This document shows positions 18,797-29,827 of a DNA stretch of 64,000 nt, piece by piece. The translations under genes were made by a program, and so were the position numbers. The stretch is from Oribacterium sp. WCC10 (GTDB lineage Bacteria; Bacillota; Clostridia; Lachnospirales; Lachnospiraceae): NCBI RefSeq assembly GCF_900113415.1, contig NZ_FOPH01000008.1, positions 1-64,000 on the forward strand, written 5' to 3'. Numbering within the stretch: position 1 is the first letter of the stretch; each line of letters starts with the position of its first letter. The notes below the pieces were generated by a model. The model did not search any database, had not been told where the DNA came from, and saw nothing but the letters and a program-made list of their open reading frames with translations.

Positions 18797-19291
18797 TTAT
18801 TTTTCATCATTTTGTTCTTTGATTTTTGTTATAGCCAGCGTTCCGGTCCTGGCAAGTTCCACGATTCTTATGGATTTAAGTGTATCTAGAAACATCTGAA
18901 CTCTCTCCGGGGTATCGCACATCTTTATAGTCATCATAGACTTTGACAGATCGACGATACGTGCTCCCATGATCTGGCAGTTTTCCATGATATCCTTACG
19001 GTTATCACGATTATAACGTATCTTTACAAGTACCAGTTCCTGACTGATGCCTTCACTTTCATCGAAGGTCTTGACCTTGATTATATCAAGCTTTTTGTTA
19101 AGCTGTTTTTCTATCTGCTCAAGGGTTCTTTCGTCACCGCTTGAAACGATAACCATGTTTGAAACTGACTTATCTTCTGTTTCACCAACAGTCAGGGAAT
19201 CGATATTAAAGCATCTTCTCCAGAAAAGACCGGCGACTTTCGCCAGAACACCGGAACGGTTTTCTACAAGACAGGAATATATTCGTTTCAT
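18797..19291 (-). CDS. ilvN: Acetolactate synthase small (regulatory) subunit, long form
   Basis: Regulatory subunit of acetohydroxyacid synthase. Residues 1-75 form an ACT domain (YSCLVENRSGVLAKVAGLF, then MVIVSSGD) that in this family binds the branched-chain end product. Residues 80-164 match the C-terminal ALS small-subunit domain. The length of 164 is standard. It begins 10 bases after the large-subunit gene at 19302-20936, so the two should form one holoenzyme. A second, much shorter ACT subunit at 22360 pairs with the other large subunit. Shine-Dalgarno AGGAGGAG precedes the ATG. Confidence 0.92.
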   Translation of the reverse strand: MKRIYSCLVENRSGVLAKVAGLFWRRCFNIDSLTVGETEDKSVSNMVIVSSGDERTLEQIEKQLNKKLDIIKVKTFDESEGISQELVLVKIRYNRDNRKDIMENCQIMGARIVDLSKSMMTIKMCDTPERVQMFLDTLKSIRIVELARTGTLAITKIKEQNDEK

Positions 19292-19301
19292 CCGCTCCTC
19301 C

Positions 19302-20936
19302 TTATGCTATCTCTGATGGATCAACAGTAACTTCCATAAGTACAGACTCGTCATTTGCAAGGAACTCTGTCAGCTTTTCATCCATCTCGCTGTTGTTCGA
19401 AAGCTTCAGGTACTTCATCCCGTAAGCATCTGAAATCTTATCAAGCTCGGGACTTCCGGAAAGATCCGTTACCGAGAATCGGTCATTATATGTAAAATGC
19501 TGATACTGTCTCACAAGTCCCAGCCAGCCGTTTTTGATGACGGCGATCTTTACAGGCACTCTGTACTGTCGCATGGTTGCAAGTTCCATGAGACACATCT
19601 GAAATGCTCCGTCTCCTATAACAGCAACTACCTGTTTATCAGGAGCTGCAAGCTTTGCTCCGAGTGCCGCAGGAATAGAATATCCCATGGTTCCCATACC
19701 GCCTGATGTGAAGAACTTACCGTTTCTCATGATGTAGTTACCGCAGCTCCACATCTGATTCTGTCCAACGTCTGCAACGTATATGGCATCATCTTTAAGC
19801 TTCTGACTGAGTTCTATGACAAATTCTTCCGGAGTTACTGTTGAAGCCTTTCTGACTCTTTCCAAAAGCTTCTGAAGTTTTTTGTCTTCTGTCTCCTTTT
19901 TGTAGGCTCTGAGACGGTCAACCCAGTCCGAATACTCGGAGTCACATTCCTGCTGGTTAAATACTTCAAATACACTGCCGATGTCTCCGACCAGGGGAAT
20001 CTCAGGGCCTGCATTCTTACCGATTTCTGCAGGGTCTACATCAATGTGAACCAGTGTCTTGTTCTCCGTGATGAGATCCGGCTGGCTAATGCTTCTGTCC
20101 GCCACTCTTGCACCTGCCATAATAATCATATCAGCTTCATTCATGGCACGATTTCCGTAAGAGTTACCGTTGTTTCCTACCATCCCGAAGAACATGGGAT
20201 CAGTTGTTTTCATTACACCGATGCCCATCATGGTACAGACAACCGGTATGCGATTGTTTTCTGCAAACTTTCTTACTGCCTCTTCGGCATGGGCAAGATG
20301 AACGCCGCCGCCTACACAGATGATAGGTCTTTTGGCATCCTTAAGTCTTGCAAATACCTTTTTGATCTGAACTGTGTTTCCGTTTACTGTTGGACGATAT
20401 GTACGAAGTTTAACCTCATCAGGATAACGGAAGTCCTTTATCTGTGACTTTTGGATATCGATAGGGATATCGATGAGAACAGGTCCTTTTCTGCCTGAAT
20501 TGGCTATGTAAAATGCTTCCTTCATGATGCGAGGAATTTCCTTTGCATCACGAACTATATATGAATACTTAACGAAGGATTCGCAGGCTCCGGAGATGTC
20601 AGCCTCCTGAAAAACATCAGAGCCTACCAGATTGCTGTCTACCTGTCCTGTTATCACTACGATAGGAATGCTGTCTGCAAATGCAGTTGCTATTCCTGTG
20701 ATGATATTGGTGGCACCCGGTCCGGAAGTGACCGCAGCTACGCCGACTTTTCCGGTAGTTCTCGCGTATCCGTTTGCTGAATGTGCCGCATTCTGTTCCT
20801 GACGGACCAGAACGGTTTTTATCTCTGTATCCAGGATGCTGTTAAAAAAAGGAGCAATAGCAACTCCCGGATAACCGAAGACATATTCTACCTTTTCATT
20901 CTGGAGACATTTAACTAAAGCATCTGCACCTGTCAT
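19302..20936 (-). CDS. ilvB: Acetolactate synthase large subunit, second paralogue
   Basis: ThDP-dependent catalytic subunit that condenses pyruvate with pyruvate or 2-ketobutyrate, the first common step to valine/leucine and isoleucine. At 544 residues it has the catalytic Glu in RQEQNAAHSANGYAR (near 48), the FAD-fold domain and the ThDP motif IGDGAFQMC...KNGWLGLVRQYQ with an intact GDG. It differs clearly from the paralogue at 22770-24428 and lies directly upstream of its own ilvN, behind ilvA. The GGAG is 10 bases before the ATG. Which paralogue is feedback-sensitive cannot be told from sequence. Confidence 0.93.
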   Translation of the reverse strand: MTGADALVKCLQNEKVEYVFGYPGVAIAPFFNSILDTEIKTVLVRQEQNAAHSANGYARTTGKVGVAAVTSGPGATNIITGIATAFADSIPIVVITGQVDSNLVGSDVFQEADISGACESFVKYSYIVRDAKEIPRIMKEAFYIANSGRKGPVLIDIPIDIQKSQIKDFRYPDEVKLRTYRPTVNGNTVQIKKVFARLKDAKRPIICVGGGVHLAHAEEAVRKFAENNRIPVVCTMMGIGVMKTTDPMFFGMVGNNGNSYGNRAMNEADMIIMAGARVADRSISQPDLITENKTLVHIDVDPAEIGKNAGPEIPLVGDIGSVFEVFNQQECDSEYSDWVDRLRAYKKETEDKKLQKLLERVRKASTVTPEEFVIELSQKLKDDAIYVADVGQNQMWSCGNYIMRNGKFFTSGGMGTMGYSIPAALGAKLAAPDKQVVAVIGDGAFQMCLMELATMRQYRVPVKIAVIKNGWLGLVRQYQHFTYNDRFSVTDLSGSPELDKISDAYGMKYLKLSNNSEMDEKLTEFLANDESVLMEVTVDPSEIA

Positions 20937-20980
20937 AAAATGAAATCTCCTTTTTCGTATTATTCAGAATCAGGTAACTG

Positions 20981-22180
20981 TCAAACCAGTTTAAATCCCT
21001 CTTCGACAAACTTGTTTCTGATAGCCTCAATGTGTTCGAAGTTTCTGGTTTCCATCTGAAGTGTCAGATAGCATCCGTTGATATCTGTATCCATCGAGAT
21101 GGTGTTATGGTCAACCTTAGTGACATTGGCACCCATGGATGCAACGATATGTGATACTTCCTCAAGCTGACCCGGTTTATCCAGAAGTTCGATGGTAAGA
21201 GTTGCCTTTCTTCCGGTCTTGATGAGACCTCTGTTTATAACTCTTGAAAGGATATTTACGTCAATGTTTCCGCCTGATACTACGCAGACAACCTTTTTGT
21301 CCTTTACAGGGATCTTGTTAAAGAGAACCGCAGCAACTGATACTGCACCGGCACCCTCTGAAACAACCTTCTGCTTCTCCATAAGAGTGAGGATGGCTGC
21401 TGCTGTTTCGTCATCTGTGACAGTAACAACTTCATCAACATACTTTGAAACCATGTCATATGTCACATCACCGGGGCACTTTACGGAGATACCGTCTGCG
21501 AATGTATGAACTTCACTGAGAGCCTCTACCTTCTTGCTCTTGAGCGCACCTACCATGCTGGCTGCACCTGCTGCCTGAACACCATATACCTTGCAGTTTG
21601 GATTGAGTTTCTTTACTACGAAGCTTACGCCTGAGATGAGTCCGCCTCCGCCTACAGGAACTACTACTGCATCGGCATCTGCAAGCTGATCGCAGATCTC
21701 CATACCGATGGTTCCCTGACCTGCTATGACATCAACATCATTGAACGGATGGATGAATACTGCGCCTGATTCCTTTTGATACTCAACAGAAGCTGCGTAT
21801 GCATCATCATACACACCATCGATAAGACGGATCTCTGCACCATAGCTCTTTGTGGCTTCTACCTTTGAGATAGGTGCGATGGCCGGAAGGAAAATGGTTG
21901 ATTTGATACCTGCACGCTGTGCTGCGAGTGCAACGCCCTGTGCGTGGTTTCCAGCTGAGCATGCAACAACTCCCTTGGCCTTCTCTTCATCAGTTAGGGT
22001 TGAAATCTTGTAGTATGCGCCTCTGATCTTAAATGATCCGGTGTTTTGAAGATTCTCAGCCTTTAAGTAGAGATCGCAGCCTGCATCGATTCTGGTGGCA
22101 TGTACAAGCTCGGTTTTGTTGATGACAGGCTTAAGTACATGTGCTGCCTGATAGACCCTGTCCAATGTTAATTCGTTCAT
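20981..22180 (-). CDS. ilvA: Threonine ammonia-lyase with C-terminal ACT domain
   Basis: PLP enzyme that deaminates threonine to 2-ketobutyrate, the isoleucine precursor. The PLP lysine lies in GSFKIRGAYYKI near residue 51, followed by SAGNHAQGVA and the phosphate-binding loop PVGGGGLISG near 175. Residues about 325-399 form one ACT domain (LTIELLDKPGQLEEV). The length of 399 with a single ACT matches the clostridial short type rather than the two-ACT-domain enzyme of enterics. It sits between the two acetolactate synthase gene pairs, 44 bases upstream of ilvB2, and would feed the same pathway. Confidence 0.95.
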   Translation of the reverse strand: MNELTLDRVYQAAHVLKPVINKTELVHATRIDAGCDLYLKAENLQNTGSFKIRGAYYKISTLTDEEKAKGVVACSAGNHAQGVALAAQRAGIKSTIFLPAIAPISKVEATKSYGAEIRLIDGVYDDAYAASVEYQKESGAVFIHPFNDVDVIAGQGTIGMEICDQLADADAVVVPVGGGGLISGVSFVVKKLNPNCKVYGVQAAGAASMVGALKSKKVEALSEVHTFADGISVKCPGDVTYDMVSKYVDEVVTVTDDETAAAILTLMEKQKVVSEGAGAVSVAAVLFNKIPVKDKKVVCVVSGGNIDVNILSRVINRGLIKTGRKATLTIELLDKPGQLEEVSHIVASMGANVTKVDHNTISMDTDINGCYLTLQMETRNFEHIEAIRNKFVEEGFKLV

Positions 22181-22359
22181 AATTCCTCCCCAATCTTTTG
22201 TTTCGGTTTTTGGGTGTTTTCCTGAAGAATAATCTTCTGTGAGAAAGCCTCGAAAATCGTAGAATAATTGATATTATCGCAGAGACCTGTAAGGAATAAC
22301 AGATATTTTCCCTGCACCCTGCGGGTGTGCATGAGGAAGAAATCCTCCTGCAATATGGT

Positions 22360-22614
22360 TTAGTCTTCTTTGAATTCTGTTCTCAGATCAACTTTTCTGA
22401 TGTCATAGAGCTTTTCAAGCTGTGAGATAACCTGAGTTCTCATGTAATCGTCTCCTGTGGAAACGATTTCTATCTTCGTCACACCGGGAACATCTGTCGG
22501 GCCGGCGTGTATGGTTTCGATATTGTAGCCTCTTTTTGAGTAAAGACCGGTGATTCTGTTAAGCACACCAAAACGGTTATTTACCCAAAGATCAATGATA
22601 AATCTCTCTTCCAT
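22360..22614 (-). CDS. ilvN: Short acetolactate synthase regulatory subunit (ACT domain only)
   Basis: An 84-residue protein made of one ACT domain (FIIDLWVNNRFGVLNRITGLY, then GVTKIEIVSTGD), without the second domain of full-length IlvN. It follows the first large-subunit gene by 155 bases and so is probably its regulatory partner. The start at 22614 was chosen for GGAG 7 bases upstream; a longer frame from 22644 has no ribosome site. A stem GAATGCATAT / ATATGCATTC at about 22683-22712 lies in the gap before it, without a U-tract. Function as a regulatory subunit is inferred from position and fold. Confidence 0.85.
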   Translation of the reverse strand: MEERFIIDLWVNNRFGVLNRITGLYSKRGYNIETIHAGPTDVPGVTKIEIVSTGDDYMRTQVISQLEKLYDIRKVDLRTEFKED

Positions 22615-22769
22615 GATTAACTCCGTTCTACTGTATAAGATCAAAATCAGGCGGCAGTGAAGACTCTATGTTCACTTGGCAGGAATGCATATATCTGATA
22701 TGCATTCTTACCTGCTGTATAAGCAATCCGCAGACATTTGCTCAGTTTGTATAAATGAATGTATGACTA

Positions 22770-24428
22770 TCAGTCTCTCAGAATGATACTCTTTATGGAC
22801 TTTCCTGGCGGAATCATAGGAAGAACCTTTTCGTCCTCACTTATATGACAGTCGATGACGAATGATCCCGCAGGATCCGCATCGGTTTCTTCAAGTACCT
22901 TTTCAAGTTCTTCCAGAGTTGATACTGAGTATCCCTTAGAACCGAATGCATCAGCAAGTGCCGAGAAGTTTGTTTTTCTTCCTAGTGATGTCTGTGAATA
23001 CCTGCCTTCGTAGAAGATACCCTGCCACTGGCGTACCATGCCGAGAACAGTGTTATCAAGGATAACTACCGTTATAGGGAGTTCCTGGCTTACTACTGTG
23101 CAAAGCTCGTTGAGATTCATTCCGAAGGAACCCTCTGAAGTGAAAAGAACAGTTCTTTTTCGTCCTGAACCAATGCATCCTCCGATGGCAGCACCGAGAC
23201 CGTAACCCATAGTGCCAAGTCCGCCTGATGTGAGTAATGTCTTAGGCTGCTCAAAATCATAAAACTGTACTGTCCACATCTGGTGCTGACCTACATCGGT
23301 TGCAACAACAGTATCATCTTTGGTATGCTTTCTGACTGTTTCTATGATGTTCTTTGGACAGAACTCACCGGGACGGTCAGGTATGCGGGTCTTCTTGAAC
23401 TCTTCCACTTCGTCTCTCCACTCTTTGTGTCGAACACCCTGAATGTCTTTGAGAAGATCCTGAAGTATGCCCTTTATGTCACCCTGCAGACAAAAATCCG
23501 GACTTACATTTTTTCCAAACTCTGCCTTGTCTATATCAATGTGAATGACGGTACATTTTCTTGTGTACTCACCTATGTCGCCTGTTGCACGGTCTGAGAA
23601 ACGCACACCGATTGCAAGCATAAGATCACATTCTGCCTGTGCCTTTGTGGCTGCGTACTGCCCATGCATTCCGCACATTCCGAGATTGTATTCGTAGGAA
23701 TCGGGAAGAGCTGTTCTTCCCATCATACTGAGTCCCACAGGGGCATCCAGACGATGTGAAAGCTCCAAAACTTCCTTTTCCGCACCTGATGCAATCACAC
23801 CTCCGCCACAGTAGATAAATGGTCTGTGACAGTTTTTAATGGCTTCAAGAACCTCTGACTTAACGTAAGGTACTTTGGGCTTGTCAGGCATTCTCGGAAC
23901 AACTGCTATTCCGTACTCGCACATGTCGGTCTGTACATTCTTTGGAATATCTATGAGTACAGGTCCCTTTCTGCCGGAGTTTGCTATGAGAAATGCTTCC
24001 TTTATGGTCTGCTCAAGTTCCTGAACAGAACGAACCATGAAATTATGCTTGACTACCGGCTGGGTGATACCAACGATATCCACCTCCTGGAAACTGTCGC
24101 GTCCGAGAGCGTTAACGGAAACATTACCTGTAATGGCAACCAGTGGCACTGAATCAAGGTTTGCATTTGCAATACCTGTTACAAGATTGGTTGCACCCGG
24201 ACCTGATGTTGCGATAACAACTCCGGTCTTCCCGGAAGCTCTTGCATAGCCGTCAGCAGCGTGGCATGCGCCCTGTTCGTGAGCGGTTATGATATGGTTG
24301 ATTCTGTCGCTGTTTTTATACAGCTCGTCATAGATGTCGAGAACTGCGCCTCCGGGATAACCGAATACGGTATCGACGCCCTGCTTTACAAGTTCTTCTA
24401 TCAGAATCTGTGCTCCTTTTAATCTCAT
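22770..24428 (-). CDS. ilvB: Acetolactate synthase large subunit, first paralogue
   Basis: First structural gene of the ilv operon, ThDP-dependent. The 552 residues from MRLKGAQILIEEL show the catalytic Glu in AHEQGACHAADGYARASGKTG near 47, and the C-terminal LDNTVLGMVRQWQ typical of acetolactate synthases. The metal-binding GDG of the ThDP motif reads SEG here (FTSEGSFGMN), an Asp-to-Glu change at a magnesium ligand. The start at 24428 has AAGGAG upstream; the longer frame to 24509 has none. The gene is preceded by a long leader containing a leader peptide, an attenuator and three 87-base repeats. Confidence 0.92.
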   Translation of the reverse strand: MRLKGAQILIEELVKQGVDTVFGYPGGAVLDIYDELYKNSDRINHIITAHEQGACHAADGYARASGKTGVVIATSGPGATNLVTGIANANLDSVPLVAITGNVSVNALGRDSFQEVDIVGITQPVVKHNFMVRSVQELEQTIKEAFLIANSGRKGPVLIDIPKNVQTDMCEYGIAVVPRMPDKPKVPYVKSEVLEAIKNCHRPFIYCGGGVIASGAEKEVLELSHRLDAPVGLSMMGRTALPDSYEYNLGMCGMHGQYAATKAQAECDLMLAIGVRFSDRATGDIGEYTRKCTVIHIDIDKAEFGKNVSPDFCLQGDIKGILQDLLKDIQGVRHKEWRDEVEEFKKTRIPDRPGEFCPKNIIETVRKHTKDDTVVATDVGQHQMWTVQFYDFEQPKTLLTSGGLGTMGYGLGAAIGGCIGSGRKRTVLFTSEGSFGMNLNELCTVVSQELPITVVILDNTVLGMVRQWQGIFYEGRYSQTSLGRKTNFSALADAFGSKGYSVSTLEELEKVLEETDADPAGSFVIDCHISEDEKVLPMIPPGKSIKSIILRD

Positions 24429-24620
24429 ACCTGACTCCTTTATAAGTGATTTATGATGCGAGTAAAAGAACTCATTATGTGAAATGCAACCGGTATCCGG
24501 CCGGTACATACATCATCAATAACAGCTAAAACGTAGTGAAATGATAAAAATATTTAGTATAAATCATAAATATAACTATACCACAATAGAGGTTCTAAAA
24601 GAATCCCCCGCTTATCTTCA

Positions 24621-24881
24621 ATCTCCCATATTCAATGGTCGATTTCACGTTGGCTGTCATATGTCCGCCTGTGCAAGCACAGCGTCCGCATGACAGCTTT
24701 ATCGCGAATCTCCCATATTCAATGGTCGATTTCGCGTTGACTGTCATATGTCCGCCTGTGCAAGCACAGCGTCCGCATGACAGCTTTATCGCGAATCTCC
24801 CATATTCAATGGTCGATTTCGCGTTGACTGTCATATGTCCGCCTGTGCAAGCACAGCGTCCGCATGACAGCTTTATCGCGA
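24621..24881 (-). repeat. Three tandem copies of an 87-bp hairpin repeat in the ilv leader
   Basis: Units start at 24621, 24708 and 24795 with exact 87-base spacing. Copies 2 and 3 are essentially identical; copy 1 differs at two positions (CACGTTGGC for CGCGTTGAC). Each unit contains the arms GCTGTCAT...GCCTGTGC and GCACAGCG...ATGACAGC, forming a long imperfect stem with an AA loop. The array lies between the attenuator terminator and ilvB1, so it would be transcribed only when the attenuator is read through. Because 87 is a multiple of 3, both strands stay open; neither frame has a ribosome site. Confidence 0.9.
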
Positions 24882-24916
24882 AAAAAAACCTTGCAGTGGT
24901 AAAGCTGCAAGGTTTT
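24881..24916 (-). terminator. Attenuator terminator of the ilv operon
   Basis: Minus strand: perfect 12-bp stem AAAACCTTGCAG / CTGCAAGGTTTT with the loop CTTTACCA, followed by eight T. It lies 36 bases after the leader peptide stop and about 450 bases before ilvB1. The segment at 24941-24957 (GTGTAAAGCTTTTCAAG), overlapping the leader stop codon, can pair with CTTGCAGCTTTACCAC (24896-24911) over about 14 pairs and would break this terminator. Confidence 0.85.
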
Positions 24917-24951
24917 AAAAACATATCCGTCTTTATATCTCTTGAAAAGCT

Positions 24952-25035
24952 TTACACAAAAAAGGCACTATTGCGAATCACAATAATGTTCACGAGAATA
25001 ATAATGACAGATAGAATCACACTGTAATTATTCAT
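24952..25035 (-). CDS. Leader peptide of the ilv operon (27 residues)
   Basis: Short frame ATG 25035 to TAA 24952. Residues 6-20 read VILSVIIILVNIIVI: 13 of 15 are Ile, Val or Leu, the products of the operon downstream. It starts about 32 bases after a predicted transcription start, and its stop codon overlaps the first arm of an antiterminator. An intrinsic terminator follows 36 bases later. This is the arrangement of ribosome-mediated attenuation as in enteric ilvL. The ribosome site is modest: AAAGGA 13 bases and AAGAAG 1 base upstream. The peptide itself needs no function of its own. Confidence 0.75.
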   Translation of the reverse strand: MNNYSVILSVIIILVNIIVIRNSAFFV

Positions 25036-25073
25036 GCTTCTTTGCGTTTCCTTTCATCGAAATATATATATAA

Positions 25074-25102
25074 ATTATGCGATTGACACATGCCTAAGTC
25101 AA
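25074..25102 (-). promoter_or_regulatory. Sigma-A promoter of the ilv operon
   Basis: Minus strand TTGACT (25097-25102), a 17-base spacer, CATAAT (25074-25079). The start would be near 25067, 32 bases before the leader peptide ATG. Confidence 0.7.
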
Positions 25103-28293: not shown

Positions 28294-29673
28294 TCAGCTT
28301 ATTCTTTCCGAAATCTCTCTTGCGACAAATACACCGCTTGCCGAAGCATGTGACAGTGAGTGGGTAACACCGCTTCCGTCACCTATAACGAAGAGTTCAG
28401 GATAGATGGTTTCAAGGTGCTCATCCACAGATACCTCCATATTGTAGAACTTAACTTCTACGCCATAAAGCAGTGTATCATCATTGGCAGTACCGGGCGC
28501 GATCTTATCAAGAGCGTAGATCATTTCCACGATACCGTCGAGTATTCTCTTCGGGAGAACAAGGCTAAGGTCACCCGGTGTTGCTTTCAGAGTCGGGCGG
28601 ACTGTTCCCTCTTCGATTCTCTTTGCATTACTTCTGCGGCCTCTTTCAAGGTCTCCGAAACGCTGAACGATAACGCCTCCGCCAAGCATGTTGGAGAGAC
28701 GGGCGATGCTTTCTCCATATCCGTTACTGTCCTTAAACGGCTCAGAGAAATGCTTGCTTACGAGAAGTGCGAAGTTGGTATTCTCTGTCTGCATAGCCGG
28801 ATCCTCATAGCTGTGACCGTTTACGGTGATGATTCCGTTGGTATTCTCGTTAACAACAGCTCCGTGAGGATTCATACAGAAAGTACGAACCGAATCTTCA
28901 AACTTCTGAGTCTTATATACTATCTTTCCTTCGTAAAGTACGTCTGTGATGTCTTCAAATACAACTGCAGGAAGCTCAACACGTACACCGATATCTACAC
29001 GGTTGGATCTGGTCGGGATATTCATGTCATCACAAACAGTCTGCATCCACTTGCTTCCGCTTCGACCTACTGAAATGACACAGTATTTGCACGATGCCTT
29101 TCCGTCCTTGAACTCAACCTCATAGCCGTCATCGAGTTTTCTTACTTTTTCAATCGGAGTTCTGAAGAAGAAATGAATCTTATCCTTCATCTCTTTATAC
29201 AGATTCTCAAGAACGATATAGTTCTTGTCTGTTCCAAGATGTCTTACGGATGCATCCAGGAGATTAAGCTTATTCTGGATACACTTCTTTTTGAATTCAG
29301 AACCTGCTGTGCTGTATAGCTTAGTGCCCTCTCCACCATGAGTCATGTTAATGGTATCAACATACTTCATAAGGTCGATGGCCTTCTCTTTGCCCAGATA
29401 TTCATAAAGTGTTCCGCCGAATGCATTGGTAATGTTGTATTTACCGTCAGAAAATGCTCCTGCGCCGCCAAAACCGCTCATGATAGAACATGTCGGACAA
29501 TTGATACAGGATTTGATCTTGTCTCCGTCTATAGGACATTTTCTCTTCTCCAGAGGATTACCTGATTCAAATACTGCTATTTCGAGTTCAGGCTGAAGCT
29601 TCATGAGTTCATAAGCTGCAAATATACCTCCCGGTCCTGCTCCTATAATTATGACATCAAATTTAGTGTTCAT
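28294..29673 (-). CDS. FAD-dependent oxidoreductase (COG2509-like)
   Basis: Flavoprotein of 459 residues, substrate unknown. The N-terminal dinucleotide-binding motif is IIIGAGPGGIFAAYEL (residues about 7-22). A cysteine-containing segment (KSCINCPTCSIMSGFGGAGAFSDGKYN) follows, characteristic of this family of uncharacterised dehydrogenases. The C-terminus closes with the FAD motif VIGDGSGVTHSLSHASASG, where such enzymes place the flavin. The start at 29673 follows a very strong GAGGGGAG 5 bases upstream. The leader contains a terminator-like hairpin whose U-tract ends directly at that ribosome site, so expression is likely controlled by premature termination. Confidence 0.82.
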   Translation of the reverse strand: MNTKFDVIIIGAGPGGIFAAYELMKLQPELEIAVFESGNPLEKRKCPIDGDKIKSCINCPTCSIMSGFGGAGAFSDGKYNITNAFGGTLYEYLGKEKAIDLMKYVDTINMTHGGEGTKLYSTAGSEFKKKCIQNKLNLLDASVRHLGTDKNYIVLENLYKEMKDKIHFFFRTPIEKVRKLDDGYEVEFKDGKASCKYCVISVGRSGSKWMQTVCDDMNIPTRSNRVDIGVRVELPAVVFEDITDVLYEGKIVYKTQKFEDSVRTFCMNPHGAVVNENTNGIITVNGHSYEDPAMQTENTNFALLVSKHFSEPFKDSNGYGESIARLSNMLGGGVIVQRFGDLERGRRSNAKRIEEGTVRPTLKATPGDLSLVLPKRILDGIVEMIYALDKIAPGTANDDTLLYGVEVKFYNMEVSVDEHLETIYPELFVIGDGSGVTHSLSHASASGVFVAREISERIS

Positions 29674-29686
29674 TTTCTCTCCCCTC

Positions 29687-29755
29687 AAAAAAACAAGCTG
29701 CCGTTGACAATACCTTACGACAAAAAAAGTCATAAGGTGCTGTTAACGGCAGCTT
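29687..29755 (-). terminator. Terminator-like hairpin in the 5' leader of the FAD oxidoreductase gene
   Basis: Minus strand: a long stem opens AAGCTGCCGTT and closes AACGGCAGCTT, with inner pairs ACCTTA / TAAGGT and the loop TTTTTTT, followed by G and seven T (29687-29693). The Shine-Dalgarno GAGGGGAG begins at 29686. No promoter fits between hairpin and gene, so the hairpin must be transcribed as part of the leader. Confidence 0.75.
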
Positions 29756-29798
29756 GTGGAAACGCCCAACCATATAATGGGCATATTATGACGATGAA

Positions 29799-29827
29799 AT
29801 TTTACGTTGTTTGCGACTTATCGTCAA
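29799..29827 (-). promoter_or_regulatory. Promoter upstream of the leader hairpin
   Basis: Minus strand TTGACG (29822-29827), a 17-base spacer, TAAAAT (29799-29804). The start near 29792 gives a leader of about 120 bases that also contains a small GCCCA...TGGGC stem. Confidence 0.7.

Follow-up and report, generated by a model that had tools for sequence, protein, structure and literature searches.

The leader that precedes ilvB in Oribacterium sp. WCC10 most probably acts as a ribosome-mediated transcription attenuator of this gene, a reading to which we give, from sequence evidence, a probability of roughly 0.9. This reading had been put forward in a preliminary description of the same DNA, a window of 64,000 nucleotides, and it is supported here by comparative tests, by compensatory changes and by the absence of a T-box at the locus. 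The Oribacterium element has every sequence-level feature of ribosome-mediated attenuators that we tested, including a short leader frame in which codons for the operon's end products abound, an intrinsic terminator between this frame and the first gene, and an antiterminator that excludes the terminator and is conserved by compensatory change. According to the proposed mechanism, RNA polymerase would transcribe the leader as a ribosome translates an Ile/Val/Leu-rich peptide. With ample charged tRNA, the ribosome at the stop codon would cover region 2 and the terminator (3:4) would form; with Ile or Val (or Leu) scarce, stalling within codons 6-20 would let regions 2 and 3 pair, resulting in read-through into ilvB; and with an untranslated leader, region 1, containing the leader ribosome-binding site (RBS), would tie up region 2, leading to termination by default.

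The gene ilvB (22770-24428, minus strand) encodes the large subunit of a biosynthetic acetolactate synthase (TIGR00118, 672.2 bits, cutoff 538.35) and is the first gene past the attenuator. It is followed, in order, by ilvA, a second acetolactate synthase large-subunit gene, a small-subunit gene and the gene of a Rid-family protein, while a DUF815 gene and ilvC lie upstream of the attenuator. The region 18797-24428 of the window holds two large-subunit genes within 6 kb, ilvB (22770-24428) and the second one (19302-20936), the latter being followed by the small subunit and ilvA sitting between the two. Directly past the T run of the attenuator and before ilvB are three tandem 87-bp repeats with inverted repeats (24620-24882); 7 of 17 genomes of the genus carry related copies, one of them (G006) at 11 places, which suggests a repeat dispersed within the genus. 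Elsewhere in the window, a purine riboswitch match (29713-29811; 38.9 bits, cutoff 37) overlaps the listed start of an open reading frame (28294-29733) without NCBIfam match, by eye an FAD-type oxidoreductase and an unusual neighbour for a purine aptamer.

Upstream of the leader, the sigma-70-type promoter of the preliminary description is present on the minus strand (25074-25102), with TTGACT at 25102-25097, a 17-nt spacer and CATAAT at 25079-25074, and a transcript start is expected near 25067. By eye, 8 of 11 aligned relatives, window counted, have a TTGAC/ATAAT-like pair, and the other three (L013, L014 and L016) have none. The 27-codon leader peptide gene follows on the same strand (24952-25035; ATG at 25035, stop TAA at 24954-24952; MNNYSVILSVIIILVNIIVIRNSAFFV). 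Thirteen of the 15 residues at positions 6-20 are Ile, Leu or Val, as had been claimed, and no other stop-free 15-codon stretch of the window, in any of its six frames, has at least 13 such residues. When the leader frame is shuffled with dinucleotides preserved, the run is matched in only 5 of 20,000 shuffles in any frame and in 2 of 20,000 in frame 0. A chance frame is ruled out by these shuffles, by the uniqueness of the run in the window and by the controls of the leader-plus-terminator detector (see below). Two further Ile/Leu/Val candidates come up at threshold in a window-wide scan for leaders with terminators; they lie on the plus strand, at 1761 and 5758, and have terminators that look poor by eye. 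The Shine-Dalgarno sequence of the leader is not a textbook one at standard spacing, AAGGA ending about 13 nt before the ATG.

The intrinsic terminator (24881-24916, minus strand) has a 12-bp stem, AAAACCTTGCAG / CTGCAAGGTTTT (24916-24885), an 8-nt loop and a run of eight T (24888-24881). The stem is as initially described, but the eight T are not separate from it: four of them form its 3' end, so that the structure is to be read either as 8 bp and eight T or as 12 bp and four T. Region 2 (GTGTAAAGCTTTTCAAG, 24941-24957, minus strand) serves as the 5' strand of the antiterminator and shares bases with the leader stop codon. Region 3 (CTTGCAGCTTTACCAC, 24896-24911, minus strand) is common to the antiterminator, with region 2, and to the terminator, with its 3' arm. 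The pairing already noticed between the stop-overlapping segment and the 5' arm of the terminator is found again, GTGTAAAGC...CAAG facing CTTG..GCTTTAC.CAC, and the RNA from region 2 to just before the 3' terminator arm has a fold of -17.0 kcal/mol.

The preliminary architecture is thus supported, except that it missed two elements, a helix between the RBS and region 2 and a hairpin inside the leader frame. In folds of the window leader, region 1 (GAAAGGAAACGCAAAG, 25040-25055, minus strand), which comprises the leader RBS and 5'UTR, pairs with region 2 as a protector helix. The in-frame hairpin, called hairpin A (24966-24988, minus strand), is followed by a T-rich stretch and holds the late Ile/Val codons, region 2 not being part of it. 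It ends 10-11 nt before an invariant G (24955 in the window) that is preceded by a pyrimidine. The pause consensus of RNA polymerase is G-10/Y-1/G+1, and the spacing is near that at which pause hairpins are effective, making hairpin A a candidate pause hairpin. In a classical attenuator, strand 1 of the 1:2 hairpin holds the regulatory codons, and in the trp leader this one hairpin serves both the pause and the protector functions; in the Oribacterium leader, these functions would be split between two helices. General accounts of RNA polymerase pausing are given in PMC6336406 and PMC9291695.

To see how far this organization is shared, 17 genomes of the genus were searched. In twelve, a close ilvB (65-100% identity) is complete and its upstream region is available, and a 13th locus comes from a genome (G009) whose ilvB is split over contigs and of which the upstream part could be read; no close ilvB orthologue is found in G012, G014, G015 and G016. 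None of the 13 loci lacks a short leader frame or a terminator. As the preliminary description had expected of relatives, leader frame, branched-chain amino acid (BCAA) codons and terminator are kept together, at 12 of the 13 loci, the leader of L018 being degenerate (MILSGIIV). Nine to ten Ile, Leu or Val in 12 residues are found in 11 of the 12 leaders with full ilvB, and 8 of 12 in G009, which has a 16-bp terminator; a stem of at least 10 bp followed by a T-rich stretch is present in all 12 leaders and in the 13th. In the lineage of the window (L009, L014 and L016), a 1-nt insertion alters the C-terminus of the peptide compared with L010-L013 and L015: with the extra base, the frame stops at GTGTAA, a site past which it continues in L010-L012 and L015 and, in a version of its own, in L013. 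This one-base shift of the frame end indicates that the C-terminus is free to change, the RNA segment being kept.

Compensatory stem changes, also anticipated at first, are present in both the terminator and the antiterminator. In the 12 leaders (11 distinct), terminator and hairpin A together have 100% of their cells paired and 5 pairs changed on both sides, and none of 500 shuffles, which retain the effect of relatedness between leaders, reaches their covariation score. All five double-changed pairs belong to the terminator, hairpin A varying on one side only in this set. When the set is extended to 20 leaders, 97.4% of the cells are paired and 9 pairs are changed on both sides, neither value being reached in 500 shuffles; two of the nine now fall in hairpin A, whose helix has 94.4% of its cells paired and one mismatched position in 8 rows. 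Slid controls of the same structures are only 30-57% paired in the two sets. For the antiterminator, 90.7% of the cells are paired in the 12 leaders (11 distinct), with 4 pairs changed on both sides (9/500 shuffles) and a covariation score that no shuffle out of 500 reaches; in four leaders (L017-L020), one A-U pair is replaced by C-G. Further pair types are no commoner in the 12 leaders than in shuffles, be it for terminator and hairpin A (257/500) or for the antiterminator (457/500). Sequence comparison shows that frame, codons, terminator, antiterminator and hairpin A are conserved, and that the RBS:region 2 helix is shared by near relatives.

Partner-swapping tests bear on the two helices that compete for region 2. 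A leader's own regions 2 and 3 pair better than swapped ones, none of 5000 permutations being as good in 19 leaders and 5 of 5000 in the 11 Oribacterium leaders. The test is not significant within the 7 non-Oribacterium leaders (660/5000), probably because their sequences are alike. For regions 1 and 2, swapped partners do as well as own ones in 0/5000 permutations (19 leaders), 2/5000 (the seven non-Oribacterium Lachnospiraceae) and 68/5000 (the eleven Oribacterium), figures that relatedness can inflate. When 54-74 segments along each leader are compared as partners of the RBS segment, region 2 pairs best in 17 of the 19 leaders, including that of the window sequence; it ranks 13th of 60 in L018 and 2nd of 60 in L178. 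The pairing is better than that of shuffled RBS segments in 16 of the 19 (at most 7/200 as good), and no better in L018 (152/200), L019 (21/200) and L020 (23/200). When eight other, mostly distant leaders are considered, the RBS:region 2 helix is supported in one, L178, whereas the 2:3 pairing is supported in seven, the weak case being L178 itself (57/300 shuffles as good). As the RBS:region 2 pairing is no better than in shuffles in L185, L186, L190, L191, L193, L194 and L160, we reject this helix as a general rule and regard it as a trait of the Oribacterium-like group.

Folding the window RNA with alternative structures, as the preliminary description had suggested, brings out the RBS:region 2, the 2:3 and the terminator alternatives. 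Thermodynamically, the terminator prevails in every full-length fold, so that kinetics must decide, as they do in other attenuators. Folds in which a ribosome masks part of the RNA, a crude model, were computed for odd codons only. As long as no ribosome is present, 1:2 prevails over 2:3. The latter dominates when the A site is at codons 3-5 or 19-23; with a single ribosome at codons 7-17, region 1 is free and 1:2 is preferred, which predicts termination; and from codon 25 onward neither 1:2 nor 2:3 forms and the terminator is free. The model thus agrees with the initial proposal that a ribosome at the stop codon masks the antiterminator strand. The companion proposal, that stalls in codons 6-20 free the antiterminator, agrees with the model for the late codons (19-20), which are predicted to act without a trailing ribosome, and disagrees with it at codons 7-17 for a single ribosome. 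When a second ribosome is placed on the RBS, which was tried from codon 11, 2:3 takes over at codons 11-17. Early stalls may accordingly need a trailing ribosome, since 1:2 is otherwise preferred at codons 7-17. The folds of the L010 leader resemble those of the window, 2:3 winning with one ribosome only at codons 3 and 21. From the sequence, we infer that the leader is transcribed and translated, that ribosomes stall and polymerase reads through, and that hairpin A plays a role in pausing.

Similar leaders are found beyond the genus with two covariance models, R1, built from the 12 Oribacterium leaders, and R2, built from 20 leaders that include the R1 finds. In 397 Lachnospiraceae genomes, R1 gives ten places with E<1e-3: two are training sequences (G000 and G001), seven others, all of them new, precede ilvB (G243, G284, G032, G295, G058, G377 and G298), and one (L155), not before ilvB and with an unconvincing leader by eye, is rejected. 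G072 (E 0.022) is an eighth ilvB case. The weaker places (E 0.001-0.1) were read for L158-L160, L168 and L166 (the same as L236) and checked for an adjacent ilvB only for the rest, and none but L168 adjoins ilvB. In 391 genomes of the class, R1 gives one strong new place (G569, locus L178, E 4.9e-10), and five of the seven places, without a convincing leader by eye, are set aside as chance. With R2, the same 397 Lachnospiraceae give 20 places at E<=0.003, ten of which are ilvB leaders, all in the R2 training set and thus adding nothing new. Three are aromatic leaders before a DAHP synthase gene (L229, L233/L160 and L236), this gene being named by Pfam for L160 and by eye for L229 and L236, and one place at a contig end (G072:C175) probably belongs to the leader that is truncated where G072:C17 ends. 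Six of the 20 have no convincing leader by eye, one of them at E 2.2e-6 (L230), and are set aside as chance; low E-values at places without a convincing leader imply that the model's E-values alone are not proof. In 398 genomes of the phylum, R2 gives 12 places at E<=0.001, including its own locus, a new ilvB leader (L190, E 1.9e-13) and three leaders before leuA that are rich in Leu/Ile/Val or in Leu (L191, L193 and L194); seven of the 12, lacking a convincing leader by eye, are set aside as chance. In nine genomes of the G569 family, it gives two DAHP-synthase leaders (L185 and L186) as well as G569 with the antisense echo of L184, and one of the five places, again without a convincing leader by eye, is set aside. 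The locus in G569 is peculiar, as an Ile-rich leader of the same RNA kind (L178:1492-1637) precedes a GerA spore-germination gene (L178:1751-3130); acetolactate synthase was not found in this genome in one search, and the genome is listed with 6% contamination.

Of 80 named ilvB loci, 8 have an upstream region in which a model-free detector of leaders with terminators fires, compared with 0/800 shuffles, 0/80 antisense copies and 0/218 other stretches; its settings were tightened after a first look, in which L077 also fired, farther upstream. The positive loci belong to Oribacterium sinus, to Oligosphaera ethanolica and a Lentisphaerae MAG (both Lentisphaerota), and to five others. R2 has six plus-strand matches with E<0.01 at the named ilvB loci. 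The L040 match does not fall in the leader but upstream of it, and L039 (O. sinus) effectively belongs to the training set, which leaves four independent places at three loci (L042, L041 twice and L066). In L041, from the Lentisphaerae MAG SIG80, two tandem leader-and-terminator units stand before ilvB (L041:2075-2463) and both score with R2. Over all these leaders, the codons track the pathway, with Ile/Val at ilvB, Leu at leuA and Phe/Tyr at DAHP synthase.

Three other explanations of the element can be weighed against this evidence. The terminator could be controlled by a metabolite- or tRNA-binding riboswitch, for instance a T-box, the hydrophobic frame being incidental. T-boxes are indeed found directly upstream of ilvB at 5 of 79 named ilvB loci (L044, L050, L051, L054 and L060, among L040-L118) and farther upstream at eight more, so that the leader appears to be one of at least two solutions at ilvB. 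Nevertheless, neither the T-box (RF00230) nor any other Rfam family matches the leader, either in the window at gathering thresholds or at 11 leader loci at E up to 0.5 (Rfam 15). The six T-box matches of the same genome, none at the ilvB leader locus, precede by eye thrS, pheS, trpD, trpE and the genes of an ABC-type substrate-binding protein and a transporter. Since an incidental frame would also not account for leader codons that match the pathway at ilvB, leuA and DAHP synthase, we consider such a riboswitch highly improbable.

It is equally hard to credit that the leader encodes a small membrane peptide with a function and a terminator of its own: its 27 very hydrophobic residues do resemble a membrane segment, but the C-terminus is frame-shifted in the lineage of the window, the RNA stems carry compensatory changes, and the similar DAHP-synthase leaders encode a Phe/Tyr-rich peptide instead. 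Finally, the long, repeat-bearing spacer between terminator and ilvB (24620-24882) would leave room for regulation by way of Rho or of ilvB translation initiation instead of the intrinsic terminator; this is scarcely more plausible, given a stem of at least 10 bp with its T-rich stretch in 12/12 leaders and in the 13th, and pairs that covary. Ribosome-mediated attenuation of ilvB is thus the reading that we retain.

One tentative extension, to which we would give somewhat less than even odds, is that the split design, made of an in-frame pause hairpin and an RBS:region 2 protector, reads ribosome queueing, and that it represents an exchangeable attenuator chassis of Bacillota with pathway-matched codons. 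If so, the switch would read both the stall site of the first ribosome and the occupancy of the start site by a second one, and a hairpin-antiterminator-terminator core would have its leader codons swapped for ilvB, leuA or DAHP synthase. An RBS-anchored protector helix, if real, would mean that the attenuator senses translation initiation and ribosome queueing besides stalling, and the leuA and DAHP-synthase leaders suggest that a single architecture may serve several amino-acid pathways.

We found no report, in the open-licence literature, of a BCAA leader attenuator in Oribacterium or other Lachnospiraceae. In the ilv/leu attenuators of enterics, strand 1 holds the regulatory codons; in Oribacterium, by contrast, region 1 is the leader RBS, and the late Ile/Val codons are found in a hairpin apart from it. 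The E. coli ilvGMEDA, ilvBN and leuABCD systems, as described in PMC6123439, otherwise have the same BCAA-rich leader, mutually exclusive antiterminator and terminator, and biosynthetic operon downstream. The earlier statement that Firmicutes usually use T-boxes for this purpose is too narrow, as Listeria and S. aureus use ribosome-mediated BCAA attenuation (PMC5864092; PMC5794164; PMC6123439), for which mutational and reporter evidence is given, the mechanism being shown in the former and supported in the latter (PMC5864092; PMC5794164). The literature establishes or supports such attenuation for enterics, Listeria and S. aureus; for Lactococcus, Streptococcus and Actinobacteria it is a prediction (PMC6123439; PMC5864092; PMC5794164; PMC1262725). 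Listeria monocytogenes Rli60 and the S. aureus ilv-leu attenuator share with our element Gram-positive, ribosome-mediated BCAA attenuation, but, according to their descriptions, on which the likeness is based, they precede ilvD, encode peptides of 13 and 26 aa and act with CodY (PMC5864092; PMC5794164). Likened by description as well, actinobacterial ilvB leaders have short Ile/Val/Leu frames and terminators before ilvB (PMC1262725), and in Corynebacterium a conserved upstream frame is described as regulating ilvBNC (PMC10272879). The Phe/Tyr-rich leaders with terminators before DAHP synthase (L160, L185, L186, L229 and L236) may be relatives of uORFC-13-1 of Acholeplasma aroF, likewise a Phe-coding upstream frame with a terminator; the latter comes from Acholeplasma and environmental sequences, and the likeness is again one of description (PMC8632094). 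As BCAA attenuation is known in Listeria and S. aureus, the kind of system is already known; what appears to be new are the taxa, an RNA without Rfam match, a helix anchored on the RBS, and a connection with the leaders of leuA and DAHP synthase. The bacteria that sense their BCAA supply by ribosome stalling would thereby come to include a group of Clostridia from gut and rumen.
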